Assembly: GCF_022865125.1 (NCBI RefSeq)
Contig: NZ_CP094828.1
Span: forward strand, 682,001 to 746,000
Reading direction: 5' to 3'
Length of the DNA: 64,000 nucleotides
DNA from: Acuticoccus sp. I52.16.1
GTDB lineage: Bacteria; Pseudomonadota; Alphaproteobacteria; Rhizobiales; Amorphaceae
The translations under genes and the position numbers were made by a program. Positions 45,197-62,964 of this stretch are shown here, in pieces (position 1 is the first letter of the stretch; each line of letters starts with the position of its first letter). The notes under the pieces are model-generated. The model saw only the letters and a program-made list of their open reading frames with translations. It was not told the origin of the DNA and did no database searches.

Positions 45197-46873
45197 ATGT
45201 CTCGGCTTCCCAATACCACCGCCTTCCGTCGGCTCGAACAGCTCCGCCGCGAGCGCTCCGAGCTCGACAACAATGTCATCGACAACCTGATTGCCGGCCG
45301 CCTCGATCGACGCGCCTTCCTGCGCCATGGCTCGCGCCTCGGCCTTTCCGCCGCGTTGATGGGGTCGGCCCTCGGCACCGTCGGCCTCGCCGGGTTGCGG
45401 TCGGCCCGCGCCCAGGGGGCACCCGGCGCCACCATCCGCGTCGCGCAGATAACGCCTTCGGGCGCCATCAACCCCGTCACCGTGGCCGACCAGGGCGGCC
45501 TGCTGCCGCTGCAGATCGTCGGCGACTTCCTGGTGATGGACGGGCCGGACCTCGTTCTGCGGCCGATGCTCGCCACCGAATGGAGCGCCAACGAGGAAGG
45601 CACCGTCTGGACCTTCAAGCTGCGCGAGGGGGTCAAGTTCCACGACGGTGGCACCATGACGGCCGACGACGTGGTCGCCTCCATCAAGCGTCTCGCGGAC
45701 CCGGCCAACGGCTCCAACGCGCTATCGGCCTTCAAGGGCGTGCTCTCGCCGGGCGGGATCAAGAAGATCGACGATCTCACCGTCGAGTTCACGCTCGACG
45801 CGCCCAACGGCAACTTCCCCTACTACGTCTCGACCGACAACTATAACGCCATCATCGTCCCAGCCGACACCGACCCGGACGCGTTCGAAGGCACGATGAT
45901 CGCCACCGGGCCCTTCAAGCGCGAGAGCTACACGCCCAAGGTCGGCGCGACGTACGTGCGCAACGAGGACTACTGGGCCGGTCCCCCGCTGCCGGCTCGG
46001 ATCGAGTTGAACTTCTACGACGACCTGCAACCGCAGGTGCTCGGCCTTCTGGGCGGACAGATCGACGTCATCCAGCAGGTCAACGTCCAGGGCGCGCGCC
46101 CGCTCTTGGACAATCCGGCCGCCAAGATCCTGCAGTTGAAGGCCAATACGCACCGCCAGGTCCACATGAAGACCCGGGAGGGCCCCTTCGCCGACAAGCG
46201 CATCCGCCAGGCGATGGCGCTCACCATCGACCGGCAAAAGCTCGTCGACGGGCTCTTCCAGGGCATGGCCTCGCTGGGCAACGATTCGCCCTTCGCCCCG
46301 GTCTTCCCCTCGACGGACACCAGCGTGCCGCAGCGCGCCCGCGACATCGACAAGGCCAAGGCGCTGATGGCGGAGGCGGGCGCGACGTCCCTCAACACCA
46401 CGCTCACCACCATGCAGATGCAGGAGCTGCCGACGCTGGCGACGCTGCTGAAGAACTTCGGCGCCGAGATCGGCATCGAGATCGAGCTGAAGATCGAGGA
46501 CGTCGGCGCCTACTACGGGGACGCCGTACCCGGCAAATCCGACTGGCTGGACAGCGAGTTCGGCATCACCGACTACGGCCACCGCGGCACGCCGAACGTC
46601 TTCCTCTCGGCGCCGCTGTTGTCCACCGGCACCTGGAATTCGGCCAACTTCGACAATCCCACCTACGACAAGCTGGTGGCCGACTACATCGCCGCGGTCG
46701 ACCTCGAGGTGCAGACCGAGCTGGCCGGCAAGATCCAGACGCTGCTGCTGGACGAGACGCCGATCATCTTCCCCTACTTCTACGACTATCTTTCGGCGAC
46801 CGGGCCGACGGTGGCGGGGGTGGAGACCACGGCGATGGGCCAGATCTTCCTGACCCAGGCCACCAAGGGCTAG
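45197..46873 (+). CDS. Peptide/opine ABC transporter substrate-binding protein (SBP_bac_5)
   Basis: Periplasmic binding protein of 558 aa of the DppA/OppA family. An unusually long N-terminal region of ~40 residues precedes a twin-Arg signal (DRRAFLRHGSRLGLSAALMG), with cleavage likely after ARAQ. Domain landmarks are LATEWSANEEGTVWTFKLRE, VKFHDGGTMTADDVVASI and REGPFADKRIRQAMALTIDR. The ligand may be a dipeptide, opine or other amino acid derivative. It heads a four-gene operon that ends at 50768. Confidence 0.93.
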   Translation: MSRLPNTTAFRRLEQLRRERSELDNNVIDNLIAGRLDRRAFLRHGSRLGLSAALMGSALGTVGLAGLRSARAQGAPGATIRVAQITPSGAINPVTVADQGGLLPLQIVGDFLVMDGPDLVLRPMLATEWSANEEGTVWTFKLREGVKFHDGGTMTADDVVASIKRLADPANGSNALSAFKGVLSPGGIKKIDDLTVEFTLDAPNGNFPYYVSTDNYNAIIVPADTDPDAFEGTMIATGPFKRESYTPKVGATYVRNEDYWAGPPLPARIELNFYDDLQPQVLGLLGGQIDVIQQVNVQGARPLLDNPAAKILQLKANTHRQVHMKTREGPFADKRIRQAMALTIDRQKLVDGLFQGMASLGNDSPFAPVFPSTDTSVPQRARDIDKAKALMAEAGATSLNTTLTTMQMQELPTLATLLKNFGAEIGIEIELKIEDVGAYYGDAVPGKSDWLDSEFGITDYGHRGTPNVFLSAPLLSTGTWNSANFDNPTYDKLVADYIAAVDLEVQTELAGKIQTLLLDETPIIFPYFYDYLSATGPTVAGVETTAMGQIFLTQATKG

Positions 46874-46876
46874 CGC

Positions 46877-47842: not shown

Positions 47843-48723
47843 CCGTGGCCGACCCGGCCGCCGCCGCGCCCGCGACCGATGTCGCCGAGGCGCCGCGCCG
47901 CGCCCGCTCGACCGCCGCGATCCTCCTGACCACTCCGACCTTCCTCGTCGGCGCCGCGATCGTCCTCTTCTGGGTCGGCTGCGCGATCTTCGGCGACAGC
48001 CTGGTTCCCTACGATCCGTTCGCGGACGACCTTCTCGCCACGCTCGCCCCGCCGTCCGCCGCGCACTGGTTCGGCACCGACATGATCGGCCGCGACGTCT
48101 TCTCCCGCGTCATCTGCGGGGCGCGCGACATCCTCATCGTCGCCCCGCTCGCCACGCTCATCGGCACGGTCACCGGCACCGCGGTCGGGCTCTCGATGGG
48201 TTATTTCGGCGGCTGGGTGGACGCCGTCGTCGGCCGCATCATCGAGGTGATGCTGTCACTGCCCCTCATCATCGTGGCGCTCCTGGTGCTGGTCGCGCTC
48301 GGTCCGTCCACGCCCACCGTGGTCGTGGTGGTGGGCCTCGTCTTCACCCCCATCGTCGCGCGCACGGTGCGCGCCGCGGTGCTGGCCGAGCGCCACCTCG
48401 ACTACGTCGCCGCCGCGTCGGTGCGCGCGGAGACCGCCTTCCACATCATGTTCGTGGAGATCCTGCCGAACATCTGGCCGCCGATCATCGTCGAGGCGAC
48501 GGTCCGGCTCGGCTATGCGATCTTCACCATCGCCTCGCTCTCCTTCCTCGGCTTCGGCGTGCAGCCGCCCTCGCCCGATTGGGGGCTCACGATCTCCGAG
48601 AACTACGGCGTCCTCGTCGGCGGCTTCTGGTGGACCGTGGTGCCCGCGACCGTCGCCGTCGCCTCGCTCGTGGTGGGCGTCAACCTCGTGGCCGAATCGG
48701 TGCAGAGGGCATTGGCCGAATGA
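47839..48723 (+). CDS. ABC transporter permease (DppC type)
   Basis: Permease of 294 aa with the DppC N-terminal pattern DSLVPYDPFADD, HWFGTDMIGRDVFSRVICG and EAA-like loop YVAAASVRAETAFHIMFVEI. The end SFLGFGVQPPSPDWGLTISE is typical. It overlaps both neighbours by four bases. Confidence 0.93.
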   Translation: MTVADPAAAAPATDVAEAPRRARSTAAILLTTPTFLVGAAIVLFWVGCAIFGDSLVPYDPFADDLLATLAPPSAAHWFGTDMIGRDVFSRVICGARDILIVAPLATLIGTVTGTAVGLSMGYFGGWVDAVVGRIIEVMLSLPLIIVALLVLVALGPSTPTVVVVVGLVFTPIVARTVRAAVLAERHLDYVAAASVRAETAFHIMFVEILPNIWPPIIVEATVRLGYAIFTIASLSFLGFGVQPPSPDWGLTISENYGVLVGGFWWTVVPATVAVASLVVGVNLVAESVQRALAE

Positions 48724-50768
48724 GCATCGCGGCCGACCGCACACCGGCGCTGGAGCTGGACCGCCTCTCGGTCGACTACCGGGTGAGGGGGCGGGACCTG
48801 CCGGTGCTGAAGGACGTCACCCTCACCGTCCGCCGCGGCGAGGCCTACGGGCTGGTCGGCGAATCGGGGTCGGGCAAGTCCACGGTGGCGCTGGCGGTGC
48901 AGCGGGTGCTGCCGCCCAACGGACGCGTCTCGTCCGGCACCGCGAAGGTGCGGGGCTACGACATCGAGGCGCTGGACGCGGGCGAGCTGCGCAAGGTGCG
49001 CGCGCGCGACGTCGCCATGGTGTTCCAGGATCCGGGCAAGGCACTGAACCCGTCGCTCACCATCGGCCGGCAGATCGGCGAGGTGTTCGAGATCCTCGGC
49101 GAGAGCCGGCGCGCGGCGTGGGCGCGTGGTGAGGAGATGCTCGGCCGGGTTCGCATCTCAGCCCCCGCGCGGGTGATGGCGAGCTACCCGCACCAGCTCT
49201 CCGGCGGCATGCAGCAGCGCGTGGTCATCGCCATGGCGCTCGCCAAGGACCCCGCCCTCCTCGTCCTCGACGAGCCGACGACCGGGCTCGACGCCACCAT
49301 CGAGGCGGAGGTGCTCGACCTCGTGCAGGCGCTGCGGCGCGAGTTCGGCGCGTCGATCCTCTTCATCAGCCACAATCTCGGCGCCATCGCCGGGCTGTGC
49401 GACCGCGTCGGCGTGCTCTACGCCGGCCGCCTCGTCGAGGAGGGCGACGCGCGCGAGATCTTCGCCCGGCCGCGCCATCCCTATACCGTCGGCCTGTTGC
49501 GCTGCCTGCCGCGCGCGGGCCTGCGCAAGGGCGAGGGCCACCTCGACACGATCCCCGGCTTTCCACCGCCGCCGGGCTCCATCCCGGTCGGCTGCGTCTT
49601 CGCGCCCCGCTGCGGCCTCGCCCGCGAGCGGTGCCGCAGCGAGACGCCGCCGCTCTACCCGGTCTCCCCCGGCCACGGCAGCCGCTGCCACTGCCACGAC
49701 GAGGTGGACGCCCTGCCCCGCGTCGGCACCGTCGCCGCGGCGCCCGAGATCCGCGCCGACGCGCGGCCGGTCGTCGAACTCACCCACCTCTCCAAGACCT
49801 ACACGCTGGGCGGCAAGCCGATCTACGCCCTGCGCGACGTCAACCTGACGCTCGCCGCAGGGGAGACTTTGGGGCTGGTCGGCGAGTCCGGTTCGGGCAA
49901 GTCGACCCTCGCCAACCTCCTCCTGGGGCTGGTGGAGCACGACGACGGCGGCACCATCGCGATCGACGGCGCGCCGGTGCCGGCGGCGGTCCAGAAGCGG
50001 ACACGCGAGCAGGTGAAGGCGTTGCAGATCGTCTTCCAGAACCCGGACTCGGCTCTGAACCGGGCGCATACGGTCAAGCACCTCATCGGCCGCGCGGTGA
50101 AGAAGCTCGCCGGCCTCACCGGCAAGGCGCGCGCGGCCGAGATCACGCGCCTGGTGGAGGCCGTGCGCCTCACCCCGCGCCAGCTCCCCGCGCGCCCGCG
50201 CCAGCTCTCCGGGGGCATGAAGCAGCGCGTCGCCGTCGCCCGCGCCTTCGCCGCGGCGCCGCGCGTCGTGGTGTGCGACGAGCCGACCTCCGCGCTCGAC
50301 GTCTCGGTGCAGTCCGCGATCCTCAACCTCCTCACCGAGTTGCAGCGCGAGCGGGGCGTCTCCTACATCCTCATCAGCCATGACCTCGGCGTCGTGCGCC
50401 ACCTCTCGGACCGGATCGCGGTCCTCTACCTGGGGCGCATCATGGAGATCGGCCCCGCGTCGGCAGTGCTGGACGGGCCGCACCACCCCTATACCGAGGC
50501 GCTGCTCTCCGCCGCGCCCACCATCACCGGCGAACGGGGGACGCGCATCCGCCTCACCGGCGAGATCCCGAGCCCGCTCGATCCGCCGACCGGCTGCGTC
50601 TTCAATACCCGCTGCCCGCGCAAGTTCGGCCCCGTCTGCGAGACCGAGGAGCCGCCGCTCGACGACGACACGTCCGGCCATGGCATCCGCTGCCACCTGC
50701 CGCGCAGTGCGCTCGGCCGCGTCGGCGGTGCGCCGCCGCGACCGCGGCGCGACCTCGCCGACGCCTGA
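48720..50768 (+). CDS. Fused dipeptide ABC transporter ATPase (DppD-DppF in one chain)
   Basis: Protein of 682 aa with two complete ATPase domains. The first (~8-255) has Walker A GESGSGKSTVAL, signature LSGGMQQRVVIAMAL and Walker B LLVLDEPTTGLDA. The second (~355-600) has GESGSGKSTLAN, LSGGMKQRVAVARAF and VVCDEPTSALDVS. Each is followed by the oligopeptide/dipeptide transporter C-terminal region with Cys (VGCVFAPRCGLARERC and TGCVFNTRCPRKFGPVC). Such fusions occur in several lineages and give a fixed heterodimer-like engine. Convergent with lysR, five bases apart. Confidence 0.94.
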   Translation: MSIAADRTPALELDRLSVDYRVRGRDLPVLKDVTLTVRRGEAYGLVGESGSGKSTVALAVQRVLPPNGRVSSGTAKVRGYDIEALDAGELRKVRARDVAMVFQDPGKALNPSLTIGRQIGEVFEILGESRRAAWARGEEMLGRVRISAPARVMASYPHQLSGGMQQRVVIAMALAKDPALLVLDEPTTGLDATIEAEVLDLVQALRREFGASILFISHNLGAIAGLCDRVGVLYAGRLVEEGDAREIFARPRHPYTVGLLRCLPRAGLRKGEGHLDTIPGFPPPPGSIPVGCVFAPRCGLARERCRSETPPLYPVSPGHGSRCHCHDEVDALPRVGTVAAAPEIRADARPVVELTHLSKTYTLGGKPIYALRDVNLTLAAGETLGLVGESGSGKSTLANLLLGLVEHDDGGTIAIDGAPVPAAVQKRTREQVKALQIVFQNPDSALNRAHTVKHLIGRAVKKLAGLTGKARAAEITRLVEAVRLTPRQLPARPRQLSGGMKQRVAVARAFAAAPRVVVCDEPTSALDVSVQSAILNLLTELQRERGVSYILISHDLGVVRHLSDRIAVLYLGRIMEIGPASAVLDGPHHPYTEALLSAAPTITGERGTRIRLTGEIPSPLDPPTGCVFNTRCPRKFGPVCETEEPPLDDDTSGHGIRCHLPRSALGRVGGAPPRPRRDLADA

Positions 50769-50773
50769 CCGGA

Positions 50774-51754
50774 CTATGCTCCTTGCTGTGCGAACCGTCC
50801 GATGAGGAAGGAGCGGAACAGCGCGATCGCCGGGTCGTGCAGGTCGTCGGGATGGAGAGTGAGGTAGTAGCCGTAGGCGGTGTCGACGCGGGGGCCGAGC
50901 GTCACCAGGCGGCCGGCGGTCACCTCGGGCCCCCACGTCCGCTCGTCGATCAGCACGACACCGCCGCCGCCGACGGCCCATTGCACCGCCAGCGCCTCGG
51001 TGTCGAACGCGAGCCCGCGGCGCTCGTCGATGGTGAGGCCGCGCTGGCGCACATAGTCGGCCCAGAAGACGCCGAACGGCTCGTCCTCCAGCTTCACGTG
51101 CAGCAGCTCGGCCCGCGCCAGGACGCGCTCCAGCGACCCGCCGGCCGTCTCGGCCGTCTCGGCCACCATGTCCGGCGACGCGGCCGGCGTGCAGCTCACG
51201 GTCCACAGGAGATCGCGCACACGGTCGTCCACGCGCGGCTTGTCGAACACCACCGCCACGTCGAGCGCGCGCTGCGCCGGCAGGCCGACACCGTTGGTGG
51301 ACGACACGTCGATCAGCACGTCCGGGAAGGCGGCGCGGAACTCCTTCAGCAGACCCATCCCGAAGACGGTCAGGAAGGTCGGCGGCATGTGGACCCGCAA
51401 CAGGCGCGGCCCGGCGCTCTCCTGCCGCAGGCCGCGCAGCGTCGTCTCGATCCGGTCGAACGAGGCGGTCAGCACCGGGAGCAGCGCCGCCCCCTCGGCG
51501 GTCAGGGTCACGCCGCCGGGCTTGCGGTCGAACAGGCGGCGGCCGATCAGCTCCTCCAGGCGCCCCACATGCCGCGAGAGCGCGCTTTGCGACACGTGCA
51601 GCGAGGCGGCGGCCGCGGTGAACGATTGCTGCTTGGCCACCGCCTCGAACGCGCGCAGCGCGTTGAGCGGCAGCCAGATGCGCGCGCCGGTGCCGTTCGC
51701 CGGCCCGCCGCCGCCGCGCTCGTCGTCGTCCCGCTCACCCGCCCGACGCGCCAT
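50774..51754 (-). CDS. LysR family transcriptional regulator
   Basis: Regulator of 326 aa. A 20-residue Arg/Gly-rich lead precedes the winged helix LNALRAFEAVAKQQSFTAAA and SLHVSQSALSRHVGRLE, followed by a periplasmic-binding-fold sensor domain (~110-310) with RVHMPPTFLTVFGMGLL. The domain order and the GcvA-like start (WLPLNALRAFEA) place it in the GcvA/AmpR branch. The ATG at 51754 has GAGG six bases upstream; a TTG 12 bases earlier is less likely. It is divergent from the Rieske operon and probably its activator. Confidence 0.92.
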   Translation of the reverse strand: MARRAGERDDDERGGGGPANGTGARIWLPLNALRAFEAVAKQQSFTAAAASLHVSQSALSRHVGRLEELIGRRLFDRKPGGVTLTAEGAALLPVLTASFDRIETTLRGLRQESAGPRLLRVHMPPTFLTVFGMGLLKEFRAAFPDVLIDVSSTNGVGLPAQRALDVAVVFDKPRVDDRVRDLLWTVSCTPAASPDMVAETAETAGGSLERVLARAELLHVKLEDEPFGVFWADYVRQRGLTIDERRGLAFDTEALAVQWAVGGGGVVLIDERTWGPEVTAGRLVTLGPRVDTAYGYYLTLHPDDLHDPAIALFRSFLIGRFAQQGA

Positions 51755-51763
51755 CCCTTGCCT

Positions 51764-51827
51764 CAATTCGATGGGGCCATGATAAAATAGAATTGGAGCG
51801 ACTCCGGCTTCCCTGCTTAAATTCTAT
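51764..51827. promoter_or_regulatory. LysR operator region upstream of the Rieske operon
   Basis: Three AATTC-containing half sites fill this divergent gap: CAATTC at 51764-51769, ATAGAATTG at 51787-51795 and AATTCTAT at 51820-51827. ATAGAATT and AATTCTAT are exact inverses 33 bases apart; CAATTC and GAATTG are inverses 26 bases apart. Multi-site dyads of this kind fit a LysR recognition site plus activation site. Confidence 0.6.
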
Positions 51828-51862
51828 CGTCGCACACGATATGGGCAGAGGGAGACAGGGCG

Positions 51863-53188
51863 ATGCTCGACCTCGCGAGGATCGGCGGACTTTTGGGCGA
51901 GTGCAAGCCCGGTCACACATTGCCGCAAGCGCTCTACAACAGCCCCGATATCCACGAATTCGATCGGAAGGCGGTGTTCGGCTCAACCTGGCTCCTCGCC
52001 GCCTTTTCCTGCGAGATCCCCGCCGCGCGCAACTATCTGGCGCTGACCCTGGCCGGCTCGCCGATCGTCCTGACGCGCGGGACCGACGGCGTGCTGCGCG
52101 GCTTCCACAATGCCTGTCGCCACCGCGGCGCGCAGGTCTGTGCCGACGGTCCGGGCCGGCGCGCCCGCCTCACCTGCCCCTATCATCAGTGGGTCTACGA
52201 CCTCGACGGAACGCTCGTCCACGCTCGCAACATGCAGCCCGGGTTCGACGCCGCCTCGCACGGCCTCAACCCCATCCACTTGCGCGAAGTGGCCGGGGTG
52301 GTCTTCGTCTGCCTCGCGGCCGAGGCGCCGGCCTTCGCCCGCTTCGAGGCCGAGCTCGCCCCCATGCTGGCGCCGCACGATCTGGAGAACGCCAAAGTCG
52401 CCCATACCTCGACCTTGGTCGAGAAAGGCAACTGGAAGCTCGTCATGGAGAACGCGCGCGAGTGCTACCACTGCGCGACCGGTCATCCGGAACTGTGCCT
52501 CACCTTCCCGATCGAGGACCTCGGCGAGACGATGGCGAGCGCCGGCAACGCGCACTACGGCGCCTTCGCGGCGAAGATGGGCGACTACGGCCTCGGCCTC
52601 GGCCCCTATTTCGGTCCCTGGTGGCAGATCGAGCGGTTTCCGCTGAAGGAGGGCAGCCAGTCCCTCACCATCGACGGCGCGCTCGCAGTGGCGAAGCTGA
52701 TGGTCGACACCCCGGCCGACATCGGCTCCCTGCGCTGGGCGATCGAGCCGCACGTCTTCTGCCACTCCACCGCCGATCAGACGGTGATGTTCTCGGCGAT
52801 GCCCACCGGTCCGAACGAGACGGTGGTGACCTGCAAGTGGCTCGTCCACAAGGACGCGGTCGAGGGGGTCGACTACGACGTCGACCGGCTGATCCACCTG
52901 TGGACCGTCACCAACTTGCAGGACCGCGACCTCGTCGAGATGAACCAGCGCGGCGTCAACTCGATCGGCTACACCCCCGGCCCCTACAACGAGCGGGACG
53001 AGGCGTACGTGAAGCGCTTCACCGAGTGGTACCTCGATACCGCGTGCCGCTACGTCGCCGCCCGCGCCGGGTTCGAGCCGCTGCCCGAACGCATGGTCCG
53101 CAACGACCTCGACCAGCTGGTCCCGCTGGCGCTGCGGGACGCGGCCAACGACGCCTATTCCACCTACTCCGGCGCCGGCCACCTATGA
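51863..53188 (+). CDS. Rieske non-heme iron oxygenase, CntA/GbcA type (quaternary amine)
   Basis: Oxygenase alpha subunit of 441 aa. The Rieske [2Fe-2S] ligands are C85 and H87 (ACRHRGAQ) and C105 and H108 (CPYHQW). The mononuclear iron site has E200, H203 and H208 in MENARECYHCATGHPE; the Glu at this spacing replaces the usual bridging Asp and is the mark of carnitine (CntA) and glycine betaine (GbcA) monooxygenases. The C-terminal catalytic domain runs to about residue 430. Relatives remove a methyl or split trimethylamine from quaternary amines, needing an NADH reductase, which is not encoded nearby. Its stop overlaps the next ATG. Confidence 0.9.
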   Translation: MLDLARIGGLLGECKPGHTLPQALYNSPDIHEFDRKAVFGSTWLLAAFSCEIPAARNYLALTLAGSPIVLTRGTDGVLRGFHNACRHRGAQVCADGPGRRARLTCPYHQWVYDLDGTLVHARNMQPGFDAASHGLNPIHLREVAGVVFVCLAAEAPAFARFEAELAPMLAPHDLENAKVAHTSTLVEKGNWKLVMENARECYHCATGHPELCLTFPIEDLGETMASAGNAHYGAFAAKMGDYGLGLGPYFGPWWQIERFPLKEGSQSLTIDGALAVAKLMVDTPADIGSLRWAIEPHVFCHSTADQTVMFSAMPTGPNETVVTCKWLVHKDAVEGVDYDVDRLIHLWTVTNLQDRDLVEMNQRGVNSIGYTPGPYNERDEAYVKRFTEWYLDTACRYVAARAGFEPLPERMVRNDLDQLVPLALRDAANDAYSTYSGAGHL

Positions 53189-54462
53189 GCGACGTGCCGG
53201 AGCGGCTCGCCGGGCCGCACCATCCCGAGACGATCGCCATCGGCCACGGCTACGACGCGGCCGCCGCCTACGGCGCGGTCAAGCCGCCCATCGTGCTGAC
53301 GTCGACCTTCACCTACCCGACCGCGGCCGCCGCCAAGGAGGCGCACCGCACCTTCTTCCAGAGCACGCACCCGGACGAGGCGGAATTCATCTACGCCCGG
53401 CTCGACCATCCCAACCTGCGCATGGTGCAGGAGCGGTTCGCCGCGCTCGACGGCGCGGAGGCGTGCGCCGCGTTCGCCTCGGGCATGGCGGCGATCTCGG
53501 CCGTGCTGCTCGCCACCGTGCGACCGGGAGACACCGTCGTCCACACCGCGCCGCTTTATGGCGGCACGCTGGGCCTCCTGAACGGGCTGCTCGCGGACCT
53601 CGGCGTGCGCGCGTTCGCGATCACCGACGCACTCGCCCCCGCCGCCATCGCCGAGGCGATGGCCCGCGCCACCGCCGCCGGCCGCCTCGCGCTGGTGATG
53701 GTGGAATCGCCCGCCAACCCCACTGCCGGGCTGACCGATATCCGCGCCGTGGTCGCCGCCGCCAAGGCGCTCGGGCGCAGCAGCCATCGCCCGCTGGTGG
53801 TGGTGGACAACACCTTCCTCGGCCCCTTCGCCCAGCGCCCGCTCGAAGAGGGCGCCGACCTCGCCATCACCTCGCTCACCAAGTATGCCGGCGGCCATTC
53901 GGACGTCCTGGGCGGGGCCGTCACCGGGTCGGCCGCGGCGCTGCTGCCGGTGCGCAAGCTGCGCACCTCGCTCGGCACGCACCTCGACCCGTTCTCGGCC
54001 TGGCTCACCCTGCGCTCGCTGGAGACGCTGCCGCTCCGGGCCGAGCGCGCGGCCAGGAACGCCGCCGCCGTCGCCGCCTTCCTGAACGATCACGCCAAGG
54101 TCACCGCGGTCAGCTATCTCGGCTTCCTCGCCGAGGGGACGGCCGCGCGCGCCGTCTACGACCGGCAGTGCCGCGGCGCGGGGTCGACCTTCTCGTTCCG
54201 CATCGACGGCGGCGAGCGGGAGGCGTTCGCGATGCTGGACCGGCTGCGCGTCATCCGGATGGCCGTCAGCCTCGGCGGCACGGAAACGCTGATCTGCCAC
54301 TCGGCGACCACCACCCACTATTCCGTCGCCCCGGAGGTGCGGGCCGCCGTCGGCGTCGACGACGCGTCGCTGCGCATCTCCATCGGGCTCGAACATCCGG
54401 ACGACCTCATTGCCGACCTCGACCAGGCGCTCGGCGCCATCCGACCTCTCGCGCGGACCTGA
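53185..54462 (+). CDS. Trans-sulfuration family PLP enzyme (cystathionine gamma-synthase/methionine gamma-lyase-like)
   Basis: PLP-dependent enzyme of 425 aa, fold type I. The active-site Lys is K233 in AITSLTKYAGGHSDVLGG. Phosphate and ring contacts lie in ASGMAAISAVLL, VHTAPLYGGTLGLL and VVVDNTFLGPFAQRPLEEG. The C-terminal domain has MAVSLGGTETLICHSATTTH, the family SLGG block. Members perform gamma- or beta-elimination or replacement on sulfur amino acids. Its place between a Rieske oxygenase and amine oxidases is unusual and suggests cleavage of a modified amino acid. Translationally coupled to the Rieske gene. Confidence 0.9.
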   Translation: MSDVPERLAGPHHPETIAIGHGYDAAAAYGAVKPPIVLTSTFTYPTAAAAKEAHRTFFQSTHPDEAEFIYARLDHPNLRMVQERFAALDGAEACAAFASGMAAISAVLLATVRPGDTVVHTAPLYGGTLGLLNGLLADLGVRAFAITDALAPAAIAEAMARATAAGRLALVMVESPANPTAGLTDIRAVVAAAKALGRSSHRPLVVVDNTFLGPFAQRPLEEGADLAITSLTKYAGGHSDVLGGAVTGSAAALLPVRKLRTSLGTHLDPFSAWLTLRSLETLPLRAERAARNAAAVAAFLNDHAKVTAVSYLGFLAEGTAARAVYDRQCRGAGSTFSFRIDGGEREAFAMLDRLRVIRMAVSLGGTETLICHSATTTHYSVAPEVRAAVGVDDASLRISIGLEHPDDLIADLDQALGAIRPLART

Positions 54463-54465
54463 CGC

Positions 54466-56037
54466 ATGACCTTGACGCTCCCCTTCCCCGACCGCGCGTC
54501 CGTCACCGGCAAGCTGACCCCGCCGGCCGAACGCGCCGAGATCGTCGTCGTCGGCGCCGGCGCGGCCGGCTGCGCCGCGGCGATCGAGGCGGCCCGCGCC
54601 GGCGCCTCGGTGATGCTGATCGACGAGAACCCGGTCGCGCCCGGCCTCATCGGCATGGACGTGCCGCTGCAGTACGGCGGCCGCGCCGGAGCCGCCGTGC
54701 AGAACCCGGAGCGCCTCGTCGAGCAGATCCTCGCCACCTCGCCCGCGCTCGCCGAAGCGTTCGAGGCCGGCGTCGACGTGCGGCTCTCCACCTCCGTCTG
54801 GGGCGCGTGGGCCAACGGGTCCGGCATCTGCGGCTTCCCCGGCCCGGTGGTCGGCGTGGCGGACGAGACGAGGAGCTGGCTCGTCGGCTTCGGCCGGCTG
54901 ATCGTCGCCACCGGCGCGCGCGACCTCAACTTCACCTTCGCCGGCTCGGACCAGCCGGGCGTGATGGGCGCGCAGGCCTTCCACGCCCTCGTCGCCCGCT
55001 ACGACGCGTTCGAGGGTAAGCGCATCGTCATCCTCGGTAGCGGCGCCCTGGCGGCGCAGACGGCCGCCCTCGCCGCAGCACACGGCATCACGGTCGCCGC
55101 CATCGTCGAGGCGCGCGCCACCGTCCAGTCGCCGGCGCTGGAAGAGACCGCCGCGCAGCTCCTGGTGGGCCACGTCCCCCTCACCGCCCACGCCGGGGTC
55201 GAGGGCGTCGCCGGGCTGACGGTGTGCGACATCGCCGACCCGTCGCTGCGCGAGGAGATCGCCTGCGACACCATCGTCATCGCCGTTGGCGCAGTGCCGG
55301 TGATCGAGCTCTTCGACGTCCTGGGCGCGGCGCGGATCATGGACCCGGTGCGCGGCGGGCACATCCCGGCGCTCGGCGACCACGGCGGCACCTCGCTCCC
55401 CTCGGTCTGGGCGGCGGGCGACTGTGCGGGCCTCGGCGGCGATCCGGAAGCGGAGGGCGTCGCCGCCGCCCGCGCCGCGCTCGCCTCGCTGGCGCGCACC
55501 GCCGAGCCGGCCGCCACCACCCTCAAGCCCGCCGGCGCCGACGCCCTCGCCTACCAGCTCGACTGGGCGCGCGCGCTACTCGACACCGGCGGGCGCGAGG
55601 TGATGGCGTGCCTGTGCGAAGAGGTGACGCGCGGCGAACTCCTCGACGTGCAGCCGCCGCGCTATCTGGGCTGGCGCTCCAACCAGATGGCGCAGCGCGA
55701 CCTGAAGACCCTCGCCGCGGACGGCCCGGTCGACCAGGACCAGATCAAGCGGCTGACGCGGGCCTGCATGGGCCCCTGCCAGGCCCGCCGCTGCCGCGAG
55801 CAAGTGGCGCTGACGATGGCGATCGGCACCGGCGCGCCGCCCGAGACGGTGCCGCTCGCCGGCTACCGCGCACCGGTCCGCCCGCTTCCGCTGGCGGTGC
55901 TGGCCGACCATGACGAGCCCGCCGAGGCGAGCCGCGACTGGAACGTGTGGTTCGGCATCATCACGCAGTGGATCGGCTACGAGGACATCGGCACCGACGC
56001 CGAAAAAGAGCAGATGAACGCCGGGATGCCCTACTAA
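54466..56037 (+). CDS. FAD/NAD(P)-binding oxidoreductase with BFD-type [2Fe-2S] domain (HcnB/OoxA-like)
   Basis: Large flavoprotein subunit of 523 aa related to hydrogen cyanide synthase HcnB and opine oxidase subunit A. The FAD loop is VVVGAGAAGCAAAIEAARAG, a second nucleotide loop is VILGSGALAAQTAALAAAHG, and the redox end is VWAAGDCAGLGG. The C-terminal domain carries four Cys in ACLCEEVTRGEL and RACMGPCQARRC, a BFD-like iron-sulfur site. It normally pairs with a DadA-like beta subunit, which follows directly, but the small ferredoxin subunit (HcnA-like) is absent. Three bases separate it from the PLP gene. Confidence 0.88.
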   Translation: MTLTLPFPDRASVTGKLTPPAERAEIVVVGAGAAGCAAAIEAARAGASVMLIDENPVAPGLIGMDVPLQYGGRAGAAVQNPERLVEQILATSPALAEAFEAGVDVRLSTSVWGAWANGSGICGFPGPVVGVADETRSWLVGFGRLIVATGARDLNFTFAGSDQPGVMGAQAFHALVARYDAFEGKRIVILGSGALAAQTAALAAAHGITVAAIVEARATVQSPALEETAAQLLVGHVPLTAHAGVEGVAGLTVCDIADPSLREEIACDTIVIAVGAVPVIELFDVLGAARIMDPVRGGHIPALGDHGGTSLPSVWAAGDCAGLGGDPEAEGVAAARAALASLARTAEPAATTLKPAGADALAYQLDWARALLDTGGREVMACLCEEVTRGELLDVQPPRYLGWRSNQMAQRDLKTLAADGPVDQDQIKRLTRACMGPCQARRCREQVALTMAIGTGAPPETVPLAGYRAPVRPLPLAVLADHDEPAEASRDWNVWFGIITQWIGYEDIGTDAEKEQMNAGMPY

Positions 56038-57251
56038 TGACCCCATCCGATCCCGCCCGCCCCCTCGCCACCGGCGGCGACGCCAAGGGCGCCTCGGTCG
56101 TCGTCGTCGGCGGCGGCGTGACGGGCCTCTCGGCGGCGTGGTGGCTGTCGCGCGAGGGTGTCGACGTCACGGTGCTGGAAAAGGGCATCGTCGGCTTCGA
56201 GGCGTCGGGCCGCAACGGCGGCGGCTGCACGCACTACCAGAGCCCCCTGTTCCACGAAGAGCAGCGCCTGTGGCCGCAAATGGACGAGCTGCTCGGCTAC
56301 CCGACCGAGTACCGGCGCACCCGCATCATCTTCCAGATCGACCCCGCCAAGGCGAACTTCGCCGAGGGGCTGAAGATGCGCATACCGGCAGGCTACGAGA
56401 TGGAAAAGCTCAGCCCCGACGAGGTACGCCGGCGCGTCCCGCTGGCGGGCGACAACGTGGTCGCCGGGGTGCACCTGAAGTTCGGCGGGCACGCCAACCC
56501 GCAGCGCACCAGCCAGGCCTACGCCTGGGCCGCGCAGGACCACGGCGCGACGATCCGCCAGCACGTCGCGGTGCTGAAGGTGATCACCGAGGGCGGCCGC
56601 GCGGTGGCGGTGGAGACCTCGGAGGGCCGCATCGCCTGCGACCACCTGGTGATCGCCGCCGGCCCGCTGACGGGCAAGCTCCTCGCCACCATCGGCATCG
56701 ACCTGCCGCTCGCCCCGGCGCGGGCGGAGATGATCGTCACCGAGCCGCTGCCGCTGATGCCGCTGACGGGGGTCGACGGCAACGGCATGTACGGCCGGCA
56801 GACGCTGCGCGGCAACCTCGCCTACGGCGGCGGCTGGCACGAGTGGTACGACGACGTGCCGCTCGACACCGCGCCGCCGCGCCCGTCGGGCACCGCACTG
56901 CGGGGCCTCGCCAAACGCGTCGCGGCGCTGTTGCCGAAGGCGGCGCACGCCCGCGTCATCCGTTCGTGGTCCGGCGTCATCGAGAACACGCCCGACGGTC
57001 GCCCGGTGCTGGAGCGCCTCGCGGCACCCGGCAACGTCACGGTCGCCACGATGTCGGCGGTCGGCTTCGGCCTGTCGCCGGCATCGGGCCACGCGATCCG
57101 CGACCTGGTGATCGACGGCAAGCCCTCGTTCTGCGACCTCTCGAAGCTCTCCCTGTCGCGCTTCGCGGGCCTGCCGGCGAACTGGCGCGAGGAGCTGAAC
57201 TGGGTGCCGACCAGGCCGACGCCCGCGCCGAGCGCGATGGAGACCCAATGA
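56037..57251 (+). CDS. FAD-dependent amine oxidase subunit (HcnC/OoxB/sarcosine oxidase beta-like)
   Basis: DAO-family flavoprotein of 404 aa. FAD loop VVVGGGVTGLSAAWWLSREG, followed by FEASGRNGGGCTHY, which corresponds to the ASGRNxGG motif of sarcosine oxidase beta and opine oxidases. The C-terminus has SWSGVIENTPDGRPVLER and SAVGFGLSPASGHAI. It most likely forms a complex with the preceding subunit to oxidise a secondary or tertiary amine. Its ATG overlaps the previous stop by one base (TAATG). Confidence 0.88.
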   Translation: MTPSDPARPLATGGDAKGASVVVVGGGVTGLSAAWWLSREGVDVTVLEKGIVGFEASGRNGGGCTHYQSPLFHEEQRLWPQMDELLGYPTEYRRTRIIFQIDPAKANFAEGLKMRIPAGYEMEKLSPDEVRRRVPLAGDNVVAGVHLKFGGHANPQRTSQAYAWAAQDHGATIRQHVAVLKVITEGGRAVAVETSEGRIACDHLVIAAGPLTGKLLATIGIDLPLAPARAEMIVTEPLPLMPLTGVDGNGMYGRQTLRGNLAYGGGWHEWYDDVPLDTAPPRPSGTALRGLAKRVAALLPKAAHARVIRSWSGVIENTPDGRPVLERLAAPGNVTVATMSAVGFGLSPASGHAIRDLVIDGKPSFCDLSKLSLSRFAGLPANWREELNWVPTRPTPAPSAMETQ

Positions 57252-58411
57252 GCCGCTCCGCCATCGTCGTCGGCGCCGGGATCGCCGGCCTCTCGACCGC
57301 CTGGGCGCTGAACCGCCGCGGCTTCGAGGTCACGGTGATCGAGCAGGGCCCGATCCCCAACCCGCGCGCCTCGTCCTACGACGAGCACCGCATCACCCGC
57401 TACGCCTACGGACCGTGGGAAGGCTACGCCTACATGATGCCGGCCGCGTTCGCGATGTACGAGCGGTTGTTCCAGGACATCGGCGCGAACCACCTCGCCC
57501 CGTCCTCGGTGGTCTACTTCGAGCGCGGCGACAGCGGCTGGTACGAGCCGGTGAAGCGCAATCTCGCCGAGATGGGCCGCTCCGCCCGCGACATCCCGCT
57601 CGCCGAGGTGCCGGACCGCTTCCCGATGGTGAACACCGCCGGCCTGACGCGCGCGGTGGAGACCGAAGGCGGCGGCATGCTGTTCCCGATCCGCATCCTG
57701 ACCGACATGGTGGTCGCGCTCGCGGCGCGCGGCGTGACCCTCGTCGCCGACACCGAAGTCACCGCGGTCGACCCCGACGGCGGCACGGTCGTCGCCGGCG
57801 CGGCCGAGTTCAAGGCCGACCACGTGGTCATCGCTGCCGGCGCCTGGGTGAACCGCATCACCGACGCGGTGGCGGGCGACGTCGTCGCCTCGCGCCAGGC
57901 GGTGATGTACCTCGCGCCGCCGCCGGACCTCGCGCGGCTCTGGGCCGAGGTCCCGATCCTGTGCGACCTCGGCACCGAATCGGGCACCTACACCCTCCCC
58001 CCGCGGCGCGGCACGCGGCTGAAGGTGGGCGACCACGTCTTCACCCGGCGGGGCGACGCGGCGGGCGACCGGATCGCGACCGTGGACGACCTCGCGCGGC
58101 TGATGCGCGCCGCCCCGCTCGCCTACAACGATTTCCACCGCTACCGGATCATCGAGAGGAAGATCTGCTTCTACACCGTCACGCGCGACCCCTCGGAGGA
58201 ATTCCAGGTGCGCCCGTGGGGCACGAAGGCGTGGATCCAGAGCGCCTGCTCGGGCCACGGCTTCAAGCTCGGCCCGCTGATCGGCGACGCGGTGGCAGCA
58301 GCGATCGCCGGTGAGCGCGACCCGGCCGAGACCACCCGCTTCGCCGCCGGCCGCATGACCAAGCCCGAGTGCGACGCCTTCACCGCCCGAACGGCACAAG
58401 CGGCACAATAA
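57248..58411 (+). CDS. Monomeric sarcosine oxidase/N-methyl amino acid oxidase-like flavoprotein
   Basis: Flavoprotein of 387 aa in the MSOX/MTOX branch of the DAO family. FAD loop VVGAGIAGLSTAWALNRRG. C307 in KICFYTVTRDPSEEF lies in the position of the Cys that binds FAD covalently in monomeric sarcosine oxidase, and SGHGFKLGPLIGDAV matches the conserved C-terminal loop. It should oxidise an N-methyl group to formaldehyde with hydrogen peroxide. It is last in the operon and overlaps the previous gene by four bases. Confidence 0.88.
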   Translation: MSRSAIVVGAGIAGLSTAWALNRRGFEVTVIEQGPIPNPRASSYDEHRITRYAYGPWEGYAYMMPAAFAMYERLFQDIGANHLAPSSVVYFERGDSGWYEPVKRNLAEMGRSARDIPLAEVPDRFPMVNTAGLTRAVETEGGGMLFPIRILTDMVVALAARGVTLVADTEVTAVDPDGGTVVAGAAEFKADHVVIAAGAWVNRITDAVAGDVVASRQAVMYLAPPPDLARLWAEVPILCDLGTESGTYTLPPRRGTRLKVGDHVFTRRGDAAGDRIATVDDLARLMRAAPLAYNDFHRYRIIERKICFYTVTRDPSEEFQVRPWGTKAWIQSACSGHGFKLGPLIGDAVAAAIAGERDPAETTRFAAGRMTKPECDAFTARTAQAAQ

Positions 58412-58440: not shown

Positions 58441-59304
58441 CTACCGCACTTCCTCCGCCAACCGTGCCATCAGCTCGCACGCCTCGTGCGGCTGGACCAC
58501 GGCGGCGCGGATCAGATCGTCGAACCGGCGGTTCAGCGCGCGCACGTGCTCGGTGGCGGTGAACATGAAGAAGAGCGCGCCGATGTAGATCATCGCCCGC
58601 TGCGGTCCGAAGACGGTGAACGGCGCCGAGTAGGTCTGCCGCAGATCGTAGAGGTGGAAGGTGAGGCTGGGATAGAGTTCGCGGCAGATGGTCGACATCT
58701 CCACCAGCTGTTCGTGGCGCACGCGGGCGGGGAGCGCGTGCCATTGCCCGGTGCCGGCGGCGAAGGCCTGAAGGGCCTGGATGGGGACGCACGATTCCTG
58801 GGACAGCTCGGAGCGGCGCAGATGCTCGCGGCGCTCCAGCGCCCAGCGCGCGGTCGCCGCTTCGTCGACCTCCGGCCACTGGGCGTATTCGTACGCGGTC
58901 ACCTCGGCCGACTTGAGGAAGTCCGGGAAGCTGCGGGGGACGGAGCGAATACGGTAGCCAGCGGTTTCGGCCTCGGCGTACCAGCGCAGGAAGCGATCGT
59001 CGATCGGCGAGTGGGCGCCGCCTTCGATGCGGACCGGCTCGATGACCTCCGCACCGGGCCGCTCCTGACTGGTCAGGCCGAGGAGCCAATCGACCGAGAC
59101 CCCGGCGAGGGTGGCGACGGCGGCCAGCGTTTCGGCGCGGGGAAGGCGCGCGTTGGCGGGGGCGAGAAGCTGGGCGAGGGTCGACCGGTCGATCCCGACG
59201 GCCTTGGCGTAGGCGGAAGGGCTGAGGCGGGAACGGTCGATGACGAGCTGAAGCCGCTCGCGAAAGCTGGTCACGACGGCGTGGCGCTGTGCAGTCACCG
59301 GCAC
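58441..59304 (-). CDS. XRE family regulator with C-terminal sensor-like domain
   Basis: Regulator of 287 aa. The N-terminal Cro/C1-type helix-turn-helix is SPSAYAKAVGIDRSTLAQLL, ending with VATLAGVSVDWLLGLT. The rest (~85-287) is a large domain with many aromatic residues (HEQLVEMSTICRELYPSLTFHLYDLRQTY is the densest part) of unknown ligand; it is not a standard cupin or peptidase. It converges with the amine oxidase operon, 29 bases apart, and is divergent from the desaturase gene, with 122 bases between, so either could be its target. Confidence 0.85.
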   Translation of the reverse strand: MPVTAQRHAVVTSFRERLQLVIDRSRLSPSAYAKAVGIDRSTLAQLLAPANARLPRAETLAAVATLAGVSVDWLLGLTSQERPGAEVIEPVRIEGGAHSPIDDRFLRWYAEAETAGYRIRSVPRSFPDFLKSAEVTAYEYAQWPEVDEAATARWALERREHLRRSELSQESCVPIQALQAFAAGTGQWHALPARVRHEQLVEMSTICRELYPSLTFHLYDLRQTYSAPFTVFGPQRAMIYIGALFFMFTATEHVRALNRRFDDLIRAAVVQPHEACELMARLAEEVR

Positions 59305-59426
59305 GCTCCGTAAAATCTCGGTTCGAGCGTAATATCACGCTTTCGGCTATTGGCGCGACAACTCCCACGGTATGTCTCGCAATCCCGCATTGCGGCGCGC
59401 CGCCCGGCTGCGACATCCTCGCCGGC

Positions 59427-60473
59427 ATGCCGGCAACCCCTTTCGATCATGTGACCTTTTCGCACCGCCGCACCGTCGAGTGGCCGACGGTGGCGCTCTG
59501 CGGTGCCGTGTTCGGCGGCTGGGGCGCGCTGACCTACTGGCACGCCTGCCTGCCGCTTGCCGTGTCGATACCGGCGGCGGCGTGGGTGGTGGCGTGGCAC
59601 TCGTCGTTGCAGCACGAGATCGTGCATGGGCATCCGACGGCGTGGCGGGCGGTGAACCGGGCGCTGGGGTTCGTTCCATTGTCGCTGTGGATCCCGTTCG
59701 CACGCTACCGGGCGATGCACCTCGCCCATCACCGCGACGAGCGCCTCACCGACCCGCTGGACGACCCCGAAACCTACTATTGGACGCCGGACGACTGGTC
59801 CGCCCTCTCCCCGCCGATCCGCCTTCTGGTCGCCGCGCAGGCGACGCTGCTGGGGCGGATGGCGATCGGCCCGGCGTGGTGCATCGGGCGCTACCTCGCA
59901 GCGGATTTTTCGGCGATCTGCGCCGGGGACCGGGCGTTGGCACGGGTCTGGCTGCGGCACGGGGTGGGGTGCATCGCGGTGCTGGCGTGGCTGTGGGCCG
60001 TGTGCGGGATGGCGCCGTGGGTCTACGTCGCGCTCTTCGTCTACCCCGGCACGGCGCTGCTCCTGGTGCGCTCGTTCGCCGAACACCGGGCGGAGGACGC
60101 TGTGCACCACCGCACGGCGATCGTCGAGCGGGCGCCGGTGCTCGGCCTCCTCTTCCTCTACAACAACCTGCACGCCGCGCATCACGCCCGGCCGACGCTG
60201 CCGTGGTACCGCCTCCCGGCATGGTATGCGCAAAATCGCGATATGTTGATTTCCCGCAACGGCGGCCTCGTCTACCGCGGCTATGCCGAGATCGTGCGGC
60301 GCTATCTCCTCGCGCCGCACGACATGCCCCTGCACCCCACCGGGCGGGCACCGGACGGGACGGCTTCGGCCGCGGGCGCGATGCGGCCGGCGCCCGGCGC
60401 ACGTGCCGGCGGTGCGGCGATCCACGGCGCGGCGGTCGGCGCGATCGCGGCGCCCGCCGCGCCCGAGCGTTGA
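59427..60473 (+). CDS. Membrane fatty acid desaturase family protein
   Basis: Di-iron membrane enzyme of 348 aa. The three His boxes are HEIVHGH, HLAHHRD and NNLHAAHHARP, and about four membrane helices are seen, including AAAWVVAWHSSLQHEIVHG around the first box. The family desaturates or hydroxylates lipids, carotenoids or small amines; the exact substrate cannot be told. The last ~45 residues are Ala/Gly/Pro-rich and look non-catalytic. The start MPATPFDHV was preferred to in-frame upstream codons because it lies near the usual N-terminus. Confidence 0.87.
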   Translation: MPATPFDHVTFSHRRTVEWPTVALCGAVFGGWGALTYWHACLPLAVSIPAAAWVVAWHSSLQHEIVHGHPTAWRAVNRALGFVPLSLWIPFARYRAMHLAHHRDERLTDPLDDPETYYWTPDDWSALSPPIRLLVAAQATLLGRMAIGPAWCIGRYLAADFSAICAGDRALARVWLRHGVGCIAVLAWLWAVCGMAPWVYVALFVYPGTALLLVRSFAEHRAEDAVHHRTAIVERAPVLGLLFLYNNLHAAHHARPTLPWYRLPAWYAQNRDMLISRNGGLVYRGYAEIVRRYLLAPHDMPLHPTGRAPDGTASAAGAMRPAPGARAGGAAIHGAAVGAIAAPAAPER

Positions 60474-60527
60474 CAGCCCCTGCCGCCGAGGCGCCCCCTC
60501 GCCCGCCGACCCACCCGTGAGGCGCCG

Positions 60528-61334
60528 ATGGGAACCGCCAGCCTCGGAATGTACGACGCCCCCTTCGTGGCGCCCGCCAACGACGCGCTGTGGGCCGCCG
60601 TCGCCGCGCGGCTGAGGGCAGCCGGCCTCGCCGACGTGCCCGCGGCGCTCGACCGCACGCGGCCGCTCGCCGCCATCTGGCAGGCGCCGGACCTGCTGTT
60701 CGCCCAGACCTGCGGCTACCCGCTGGTGACGACGCTGCGCGACGTCGTTCGCCCCGTCGCCGCACCGATCTACCGCTGGCCCGGCTGCCAAGGGGCGACG
60801 CATCGCAGCGTCGTCGTGGTGGCGACGGGTTCGCCTGCCGACGGGCTCGCCGCGCTGATCGGCGCACGAGCGGCCATCAACGGGCGCGACAGCAACACCG
60901 GCATGAACCTCTTCCGCCGGGCGCTGGCCGATGTCGCGGCCGGCGCGCCGATGTTCGGCGAAGTGATCGAGACCGGCAGCCACCTCGCCAGCCTCGCGGC
61001 GGTGCGCGACGGCGAGGCCGACGCCGCCGCGATCGACGCCGTCACCTTCGCGCTCGCCACGCACCATAGGCCGGAGCTGACGGCCGGCCTGCGCGTCGTC
61101 GCCACGACGCCGGTCAGCCCCTCCCTCCCCTTCGTCACGCGCCGGGATGCCGCGCCCGCCCTGGTCGCCGCCCTCGTCGAGGCGCTCGCGGGCGCGATCG
61201 CCGACCCGGTCAACGCCGCGGCCACCACGGCGCTCGGCCTCGTCGCGGTGCAGCCGGTGACATTCGCCGACTACGCCGTCGTCCGGCGCTACGCCGAGGA
61301 GGCGGCGGCTCTGGGCTACCCCGCCCTCGCCTGA
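60528..61334 (+). CDS. PhnD-like periplasmic-binding-fold protein without signal peptide
   Basis: Protein of 268 aa with the PhnD/phosphite-binding fold: first strand ASLGMYDAPFVAPANDALW, then LLFAQTCGYPLVTTL, SVVVVATGSPADGL, INGRDSNTGMNLFR and ETGSHLASLAAVRDGEADAA. The protein starts directly with the first strand, so it has no export signal and no ABC partners nearby. It may work in the cytoplasm as a ligand sensor, or be exported by another route. It follows the desaturase by 54 bases on the same strand, perhaps as one unit. Confidence 0.82.
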   Translation: MGTASLGMYDAPFVAPANDALWAAVAARLRAAGLADVPAALDRTRPLAAIWQAPDLLFAQTCGYPLVTTLRDVVRPVAAPIYRWPGCQGATHRSVVVVATGSPADGLAALIGARAAINGRDSNTGMNLFRRALADVAAGAPMFGEVIETGSHLASLAAVRDGEADAAAIDAVTFALATHHRPELTAGLRVVATTPVSPSLPFVTRRDAAPALVAALVEALAGAIADPVNAAATTALGLVAVQPVTFADYAVVRRYAEEAAALGYPALA

Positions 61335-61410: not shown

Positions 61411-61444
61411 ATGCATTCTCTCCCGAGATACGGGAAGAATGCAT
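61411..61444 (+). promoter_or_regulatory. Hairpin covering the tupB start codon, with a short upstream ORF
   Basis: ATGCATTCT (61411-61419) pairs with AGAATGCAT (61436-61444) and TCCCG with CGGGA, giving a 14-bp stem with one bulged base and loop AGATA. The right arm contains the likely ribosome site GGGAAG and the first two bases of the tupB ATG. ATG at 61411 opens a 14-codon reading frame (MHSLPRYGKNAWKA) that ends inside tupB. It may act at RNA level or as a DNA operator for a metal-oxyanion regulator. Confidence 0.6.
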
Positions 61445-62922: not shown

Positions 62923-62964
62923 GCGCGTCGCCGCCGCAAACGAAAACACACGGGAGGACCCCTC

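Follow-up and report, generated by a model that had tools for sequence, protein, structure and literature searches.

A 64,000-nucleotide stretch of the genome of Acuticoccus sp. I52.16.1 (contig NZ_CP094828.1, positions 682,001 to 746,000, hereafter the window) contains an operon of five genes that encode a Rieske oxygenase, a pyridoxal 5'-phosphate (PLP) enzyme of the cystathionine gamma-synthase (CGS) fold and three flavoproteins. The operon is accompanied by a divergent LysR-type regulator and an ATP-binding cassette (ABC) importer. The general route encoded here is probably the demethylation of an alpha-betaine followed by an elimination. More tentatively, we suggest that the operon and the importer serve the catabolism of an alpha-amino-acid betaine whose side chain carries a leaving group, and that this substrate is N,N,N-trimethylhomoserine, free or derived from the lipid diacylglyceryl-trimethylhomoserine (DGTS).

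A conserved five-gene operon

The five genes run in the same direction and are joined by four tight junctions: a 4-nucleotide overlap (ATGA), a 3-nucleotide gap, a 1-nucleotide overlap (TAATG) and a second 4-nucleotide overlap, see Table 1. The five-gene operon is therefore real, as claimed in the original prediction, which was made from the letters of the window and had noted that the genes overlap or nearly touch. That prediction had treated 50774-58411 as one unit; the five genes stand, while the first part, 50774-51766, is the divergent LysR regulator, which it did not mention.

The gene order recurs in other families and orders at approximately 45-75% protein identity, and this recurrence is far from what chance would give. 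We surveyed 34 loci selected for having the Rieske gene, which is thus present in all 34 by construction. Duplicates were removed (L180 equals L007 and L184 equals L008), but near-copies were kept (L169/L170, L167/L168 and L182/L183), and these inflate the counts. All counts over the 34 loci come from translated searches, as our own gene calls miss some genes. LysR is found in 32 loci, the flavin adenine dinucleotide (FAD) protein in 32 and the first DAO-family flavoprotein, DAO1, in 31; the loci without DAO1 are L009 and L010, which are cut by the contig end, and L008.

When named genomes were scanned for the PLP enzyme, 80 of 398 confirmed stretches were taken up, and four of these 80 (L007-L010) have the genes for LysR, the Rieske oxygenase and the PLP enzyme arranged as in the window. 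They come from two metagenome-assembled genomes (MAGs) of Caulobacterales, one Sphingomonadales MAG and one Alphaproteobacteria MAG; the FAD gene is present in three of them and not in L008. Searches at E 1e-128, which share some genomes, gave matches to the PLP enzyme in 10 of 397 genomes within the order (cluster in 8, none in G300 and G365), in 11 of 385 within the class (3 with and 8 without the cluster) and in 6 of 398 within the phylum (4 with the cluster, 2 without, G300 and G990). Two family searches were queried with the PLP enzyme of L131. An order unique to this genome had been named in advance as grounds for dropping the prediction. Instead, the Rieske gene lies directly upstream of the PLP gene in all 11 matching genomes (out of 249) of the G1015 family, and in 19 of the 23 matching genomes (out of 119) of the G749 family, where three further matches lie at a contig end and one, L161, has no Rieske gene there. 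Long regions were fetched for 10 of the other 22 PLP matches in the G749 family. The order LysR, Rieske, PLP, FAD, FAD, followed by a CocE/NonD hydrolase, is also found on a plasmid of Novosphingobium capsulatum HAMBI_0103 (NZ_CP140001.1). When plasmids were searched for the PLP enzyme at E 1e-90, nothing matched, although such a gene is annotated beside the Rieske gene of this plasmid.

The oxygenase has an altered pocket residue

The Rieske ligands C85, H87, C105 and H108 and the mononuclear iron ligands H203, H208 and D354 are invariant in a seven-row alignment and were matched to CntA numbering by spacing and order. The bridging E200 is accompanied by C201 and C204, a cysteine pair that some group V members have, and the sequence ECYHC is present in 35 of 35 cluster rows. 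Judged by these ligands and the Glu-Cys-x-x-Cys motif, the oxygenase is of the group V type. The predicted E200, H203 and H208 and the assignment to quaternary-amine oxygenases thus hold, but the spacing, read earlier as that of CntA/GbcA, cannot separate CntA from GbcA. The closest solved chains are 3n0q (386.9 bits), followed by 3vca and 4qup (about 355 bits), which we take to be Stc2, and then CntA (129 bits).

Passages of two papers (PMC7948474, PMC10952381) describe a division of group V by CntA position 203, with Tyr or Phe in group Va (carnitine, choline, benzalkonium) and Asn in group Vb (glycine betaine, stachydrine). In one of these sources, group Vb enzymes are described as acting on alpha-betaines, with the carboxylate bound to the iron in Stc2, and the Tyr/Phe-type aromatic residue of CntA as binding the ammonium group (PMC7948474, in part). 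Counted from the bridging Glu, the equivalent position in the window's oxygenase is residue 198. It is Ala198, i.e., neither the Tyr/Phe of group Va nor the Asn of group Vb, while 3n0q and 3vca both have Asn. Position 198 is Ala (22) or Gly (13) in all 35 cluster rows, two of which are duplicates; L103 is not one of these rows. Among ten outgroup rows nine have Asn, and the tenth, L188 from Mesorhizobium, has Ala. In the Rieske tree the 33 cluster rows and L188 are found on one side of a branch with 100/100 support.

Compared with the group Vb enzymes Stc2 and GbcA, the domains, the ligands and the Glu-Cys-x-x-Cys motif are the same. However, those enzymes have Asn where the window's group has Ala or Gly, and the operon adds a PLP enzyme. 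With CntA the oxygenase has the Glu-His-His spacing and the cysteine pair in common, but it lacks the ammonium-binding aromatic residue, and CntA scores 129 bits where 3n0q scores 387. An alpha-betaine is the kind of substrate suggested by the relationship to group Vb.

Against the GbcA profile (NF058607) the oxygenase scores 406.6 bits, below the cut-off of 670. The same genome has one other Rieske relative at E 1e-10, which is 40% identical, has Asn at the key position and adjoins its own reductase. This separate GbcA-like locus is L214 (G000:C1:402000-421900), with a GbcB-like reductase gene at G000:C1:411089-412066; the neighbours resemble dimethylglycine and sarcosine oxidation genes by eye. 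We conclude that the operon in the window is not the ordinary glycine-betaine system.

The PLP enzymes of the cluster form a separate clade

The best family match of the PLP enzyme is PRK07049/NF005455, where it scores 501.9 bits, just under the cut-off of 504, yet the enzymes of the cluster are a separate clade. The score against methionine gamma-lyase (TIGR01328) is 326.4 bits, below the cut-off of 549.7. The PLP enzyme has Gly127, invariant in both PLP alignments, where methionine gamma-lyase has Cys, and Arg260-Thr261 where it has Lys-Asp in the alignment to a structure chain. We take these Cys and Lys-Asp positions to be methionine gamma-lyase signatures; the compared chain has Ala at the Cys site and is presumably a mutant. 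K233 in the SLTKY motif is presumably the lysine that binds PLP.

In the PLP tree, the 31 cluster sequences form one clade (support 100/100, stem 0.75) against 46 relatives above 300 bits without the cluster. Four added rows, the three cut at a contig end and L161, all fall inside this clade in a quick tree, and L161 is the exception, a PLP enzyme of the clade without an oxygenase close by. Thirteen positions separate the 31 cluster enzymes from the 46 others. The window's enzyme has ten of these residues, including A50, H54, F58, L73, T229 and Y379, and departs from the common residue of the clade at 129, 256 and 310. Several of the segments with diagnostic positions are assumed to line the active site in this fold. 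The comparison left out L010, L091, L179, L052 and L057, which have a stop codon in the matched stretch. In L010, L091 and L179 the stop lies at the very end and nearly all diagnostic residues are present (misses at 50 and 242 in L010, at 129, 274 and 256 in L091, and at 261 in L179). PLP relatives without the cluster, in G300, G365 and G559 and at L104, L105 and L128, are, by eye, divergent from an Lrp/AsnC-like regulator, which suggests a different role for the relatives outside the cluster.

A PLP enzyme is not needed by the ordinary pathways for glycine betaine, proline betaine or carnitine, as had been predicted for glycine betaine and carnitine. The PLP enzyme could be an accessory, for instance in sulfur or methionine balance, with an ordinary betaine as the substrate of the oxygenase and flavoproteins. 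We consider this improbable. The glycine-betaine-type importer genes beside 5 of the 34 loci would agree with it, and so would two loci in which the genes are apart, L188 with importer and Rieske genes but no PLP gene nearby, and L161 with the PLP gene but no Rieske gene within 1.5 kb. However, the genome already has the Rieske/reductase pair with the usual Asn, all 31 cluster PLP enzymes belong to one clade to which only the three contig-end rows and L161 are added, and in the window the PLP gene overlaps the oxygenase gene.

Three putative units for the removal of methyl groups

The original prediction described three flavin amine oxidases. Two of the flavoproteins have the DAO fold, but the third is of the pyridine-nucleotide-disulphide type and is better described as a SoxA/HcnB-like protein, a putative partner subunit. 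Its nearest solved chain is 2gag_A (sarcosine oxidase alpha, 54.8 bits), with a weaker match to 1y56_A, and it carries C-terminal cysteine motifs, CLC at 382 and CMGPCQARRC at 434. DAO1 is closest to 1y56_B (100.9 bits) and also matches the sarcosine oxidase beta chains 1vrq_B and 2gag_B. In solved complexes (2gag, 1vrq and 1y56) the relatives of the two proteins thus occur together, as chain A and chain B, which supports that the SoxA-like protein and DAO1 could be two subunits of one enzyme. We take HcnBC and opine oxidase to be further analogies for this pair.

In another explanation, the pair acts like an opine oxidase and cleaves a conjugate of an N-substituted amino acid; the substrate would then be opine-like or metallophore-like. 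The importer is of the SBP_bac_5 family, in which binders of agrocinopine, nickel and dipeptides are among the solved members, and TonB receptor genes, some annotated and some recognised by eye, lie near several loci. On the other hand, ProX-type importers take that place at other loci, the oxygenase family is described as handling small betaines (PMC7948474, in part), and the formaldehyde genes and sarcosine oxidase discussed below agree better with methyl removal. We regard an opine-like substrate as very unlikely.

The second DAO-family flavoprotein, DAO2, was aligned to 1el5 through the segments DEHRITR (from 45), RLKVGDH (from 257), KICFYT (from 305) and SGHGFK (from 335). The Cys that we take to bind FAD covalently and the presumed basic active-site residues of monomeric sarcosine oxidase are both kept. 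DAO2 scores 107 bits against the monomeric sarcosine oxidase family (TIGR01377, cut-off 479.65), and among the NCBIfam families it fits N-methyl-L-tryptophan oxidase best, though with 155.1 bits it stays under the cut-off of 257. DAO2 is found in 8 of the 34 loci and SoxA in 14, never both; SoxG is found in 14 and SoxB and SoxD in 11. Since DAO2 and SoxA never co-occur, the last demethylation appears to be done either by DAO2 or by the four-subunit sarcosine oxidase SoxBDAG. This swap suggests three successive N-demethylations, in agreement with the stepwise N-demethylation proposed earlier. The units that could remove N-methyl groups are three in number (the Rieske oxygenase; the FAD protein together with DAO1; either DAO2 or SoxBDAG), as many as the methyl groups of a trimethylammonium group. 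The logic of successive N-demethylation is common to glycine betaine catabolism, with GbcAB, a dimethylglycine step and SoxBDAG, and SoxA lies beside 14 of the 34 loci; compared with that pathway, the operon in the window adds the PLP enzyme and the SoxA-like/DAO1 pair.

The matching reductase is missing from this version of the operon, as had been noticed, but not from every version: in 4 of the 34 loci a GbcB-like reductase gene lies inside the operon, between the Rieske and PLP genes. The reductase of L092 has Fer2 and FAD/NAD domains and scores 187 bits to GbcB, below the cut-off of 500. AdhC and FghA follow directly after DAO1 in 3 of the 34 loci. The AdhC of L007 passes the cut-off of TIGR02818, S-(hydroxymethyl)glutathione dehydrogenase, which would fit a release of formaldehyde. 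Formate dehydrogenase genes were recognised by eye near L007, L169 and L170.

Proposed pathway and substrate

From the observed gene content, gene order, conservation, gene swaps and subfamily residues we infer the following reactions, subunit pairing, regulation and substrate. The substrate would be free homoserine betaine, or the glyceryl ether that remains after DGTS lipids lose their fatty acids, (i) imported by the ABC system. (ii) Supplied with electrons by a GbcB-like reductase, the Rieske oxygenase would take off the first methyl group as formaldehyde, (iii) a two-subunit dehydrogenase made of the SoxA-like FAD protein and DAO1 would take off the second, and (iv) DAO2 the third, giving homoserine or an O-substituted homoserine. 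(v) The PLP enzyme would then eliminate the gamma oxygen, as water or glycerol, to give 2-oxobutyrate and ammonia. The gene set would be controlled by the LysR regulator. The PLP enzyme is placed last, where it would carry out a beta or gamma elimination once the amino acid is demethylated, because this fold needs a free alpha-amino group. The deamination of homoserine by gamma-cystathionase is a precedent for this step.

The best reading is still the one that had been proposed for the operon, an amino acid betaine whose leaving group is in beta or gamma position. Ergothioneine, stachydrine and carnitine had also been named for growth tests, and these appear to be poor candidates. Homoserine betaine is a cyanobacterial osmolyte and trimethylhomoserine an algal lipid head group. 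We tentatively favour N,N,N-trimethylhomoserine, because few natural alpha-betaines with such a leaving group can be named and this is the abundant one. Its presence as the head group of DGTS is described in part of PMC9892843. A hydrolase resembling PETase/PAF-AH is found near 9 of the 34 loci and could be what a lipid source would want. The glycine-betaine-type (ProX) importer genes beside 5 of the 34 loci may be counted for a betaine route; the ProX of L121 matches OpuAC and the structure 7yle (227 bits), a code that appears in a section of a paper on DmpX, a binder of dimethylsulfoniopropionate (PMC10030565).

The same route could act on another betaine: methionine betaine, an S-substituted cysteine or homocysteine betaine, or tryptophan betaine (hypaphorine). 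All evidence for the general route applies equally here, the best family of DAO2 is the N-methyl-L-tryptophan oxidase mentioned above, and the PLP enzyme lies within the broad Cys/Met family. However, the PLP enzyme differs at the presumed methionine gamma-lyase signature positions (Gly127 and Arg260-Thr261), tryptophanases have another fold, which counts against hypaphorine, and hypaphorine aside no abundant natural betaine of this sort can be named. We regard such a substrate as rather unlikely. In the canavanine gamma-lyase pathway, too, an O-substituted homoserine is the substrate of a PLP gamma-lyase with this fold; the pathway is not known to include N-demethylation genes. Canavanine was rejected as a substrate, as a literature search on canavanine, gamma-lyase and Rieske was empty and no guanidine chemistry was recognised in the operon. 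Turnover of the cell's own DGTS was also rejected: BtaA (PF11899) was not found in the window's genome and is present in 4 of 29 carriers examined.

Several observations weigh against trimethylhomoserine or against the pathway as drawn. A lyase is not indispensable, since homoserine, once free, can be channelled into threonine metabolism, and no residue identifies the substrate. The same count of BtaA neither supports nor excludes an outside lipid source. The hydrolases are far under the cut-off of the nearest named family, bis(2-hydroxyethyl) terephthalate (BHET) hydrolase, and could act otherwise, and among the regular neighbours of the clusters no gene for glycerol or 2-oxobutyrate was recognised. 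The importer type varies (ProX in 5 of the 34 loci, SBP_bac_5 in 4), and in 25 neither was detected within the available stretch (in L100, one of these 25, the ATPase of the importer lies at the stretch edge); likewise, neither DAO2 nor SoxA was found in 12 loci within the available stretch. L008 has Rieske and PLP genes without FAD or DAO genes nearby, L161 (G1422:C125:11344-12588) has a PLP enzyme of the clade where Rieske and FAD genes are absent within 1.5 kb, and L188 has importer and Rieske genes with the PLP gene absent nearby.

In the literature no description was found of the bacterial breakdown of the trimethylhomoserine part, with most subscription journals outside the search, and nothing was found that joins Rieske, cystathionine gamma-synthase and sarcosine oxidase. 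It is conceivable, though somewhat doubtful, that this is the first recognised bacterial trimethylhomoserine pathway, in which three aerobic, formaldehyde-releasing N-demethylations, begun by a third kind of group V oxygenase (Ala/Gly), are followed by a dedicated CGS-fold lyase, and by which alphaproteobacteria would eat homoserine betaine and the DGTS head group.

Genes around the operon

The importer genes (45197-50768, plus strand) lie upstream of the operon. Relatives of the window's SBP_bac_5 protein are found beside the operon in L091 (90% identity), L103 (58%) and, more distantly, L009 (29%). On a plasmid of Mesorhizobium mediterraneum (L188, 2973-11210), an importer 59-67% identical to that of the window (solute-binding protein and ATPase both 62%) is divergent from the Ala-type Rieske gene and a reductase gene, perhaps a shorter version of the system.

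The gap between the LysR and Rieske genes of the window contains an inverted repeat, ATAGAATT/AATTCTAT. As the repeat was absent from G005 and from every other gap examined, it was rejected as a LysR operator and no claim is made for it.

Upstream of the cluster in L171, L178, L182 and L183, from two families, genes resembling GMC oxidoreductase, HIBADH and zinc alcohol dehydrogenase were seen by eye, joined in L178, L182 and L183 by an aldehyde dehydrogenase-like gene. These may prepare or finish the substrate.

Downstream, a desaturase-like gene adjoins 5 of the 34 clusters in varying orientation. The XRE, desaturase-like and PhnD-like genes were rejected as parts of the operon, as a relative of the desaturase is found in 20 of 61 relatives, and in 18 of these 20 nothing matches the PLP enzyme at E 1e-90. 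Further on, at 61443-63807, a permease, an ATPase and a binding protein resemble, by eye, a tungstate importer of the TupABC type.

Table 1. Positions in the window of the operon, its regulator and importer, and the genes downstream.
Feature	Position	Strand	Domains and remarks
Solute-binding protein (SBP_bac_5) of peptide/nickel/opine-type ABC importer	45197..46873	+	PF00496
Two importer permease genes	46877-47842 and 47839-48723	+	67% and 59% identical in Mesorhizobium L188
Fused double ATPase of importer	48717..50768	+	Pfam ABC_tran and oligo_HPY, two stretches each; start codon provisional
LysR-type regulator, divergent	50774..51766	-	Pfam HTH_1 and LysR_substrate; TTG start as listed, start provisional
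Group V-type Rieske oxygenase, proposed first N-demethylase	51863..53188	+	Pfam Rieske and Ring_hydroxyl_A
CGS-fold PLP enzyme, proposed beta/gamma-lyase	53185..54462	+	Pfam Cys_Met_Meta_PP, PF01053, E 7e-102
SoxA/HcnB-like FAD protein, proposed partner subunit of DAO1	54466..56037	+	Pyr_redox_2, weaker SO_alpha_A3
DAO1, DAO-family flavoprotein, proposed tertiary-amine N-demethylating subunit	56037..57251	+	PF01266, E 1.9e-60
DAO2, monomeric-sarcosine-oxidase-like flavoprotein, proposed secondary-amine N-demethylase	57248..58411	+	Pfam DAO; alignment to 1el5
XRE-type regulator (minus strand), FA_desaturase-family membrane protein, PhnD-like binding protein	58441-61334		Downstream of operon

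Implications

Whatever the substrate, the cluster combines a Rieske subgroup that has an altered pocket residue with a separate PLP subfamily. With betaine lipids and homoserine betaine, algae and cyanobacteria produce pools of reduced carbon and nitrogen. If the proposed substrate is true, the operon would supply marker genes for the flux of trimethylhomoserine.

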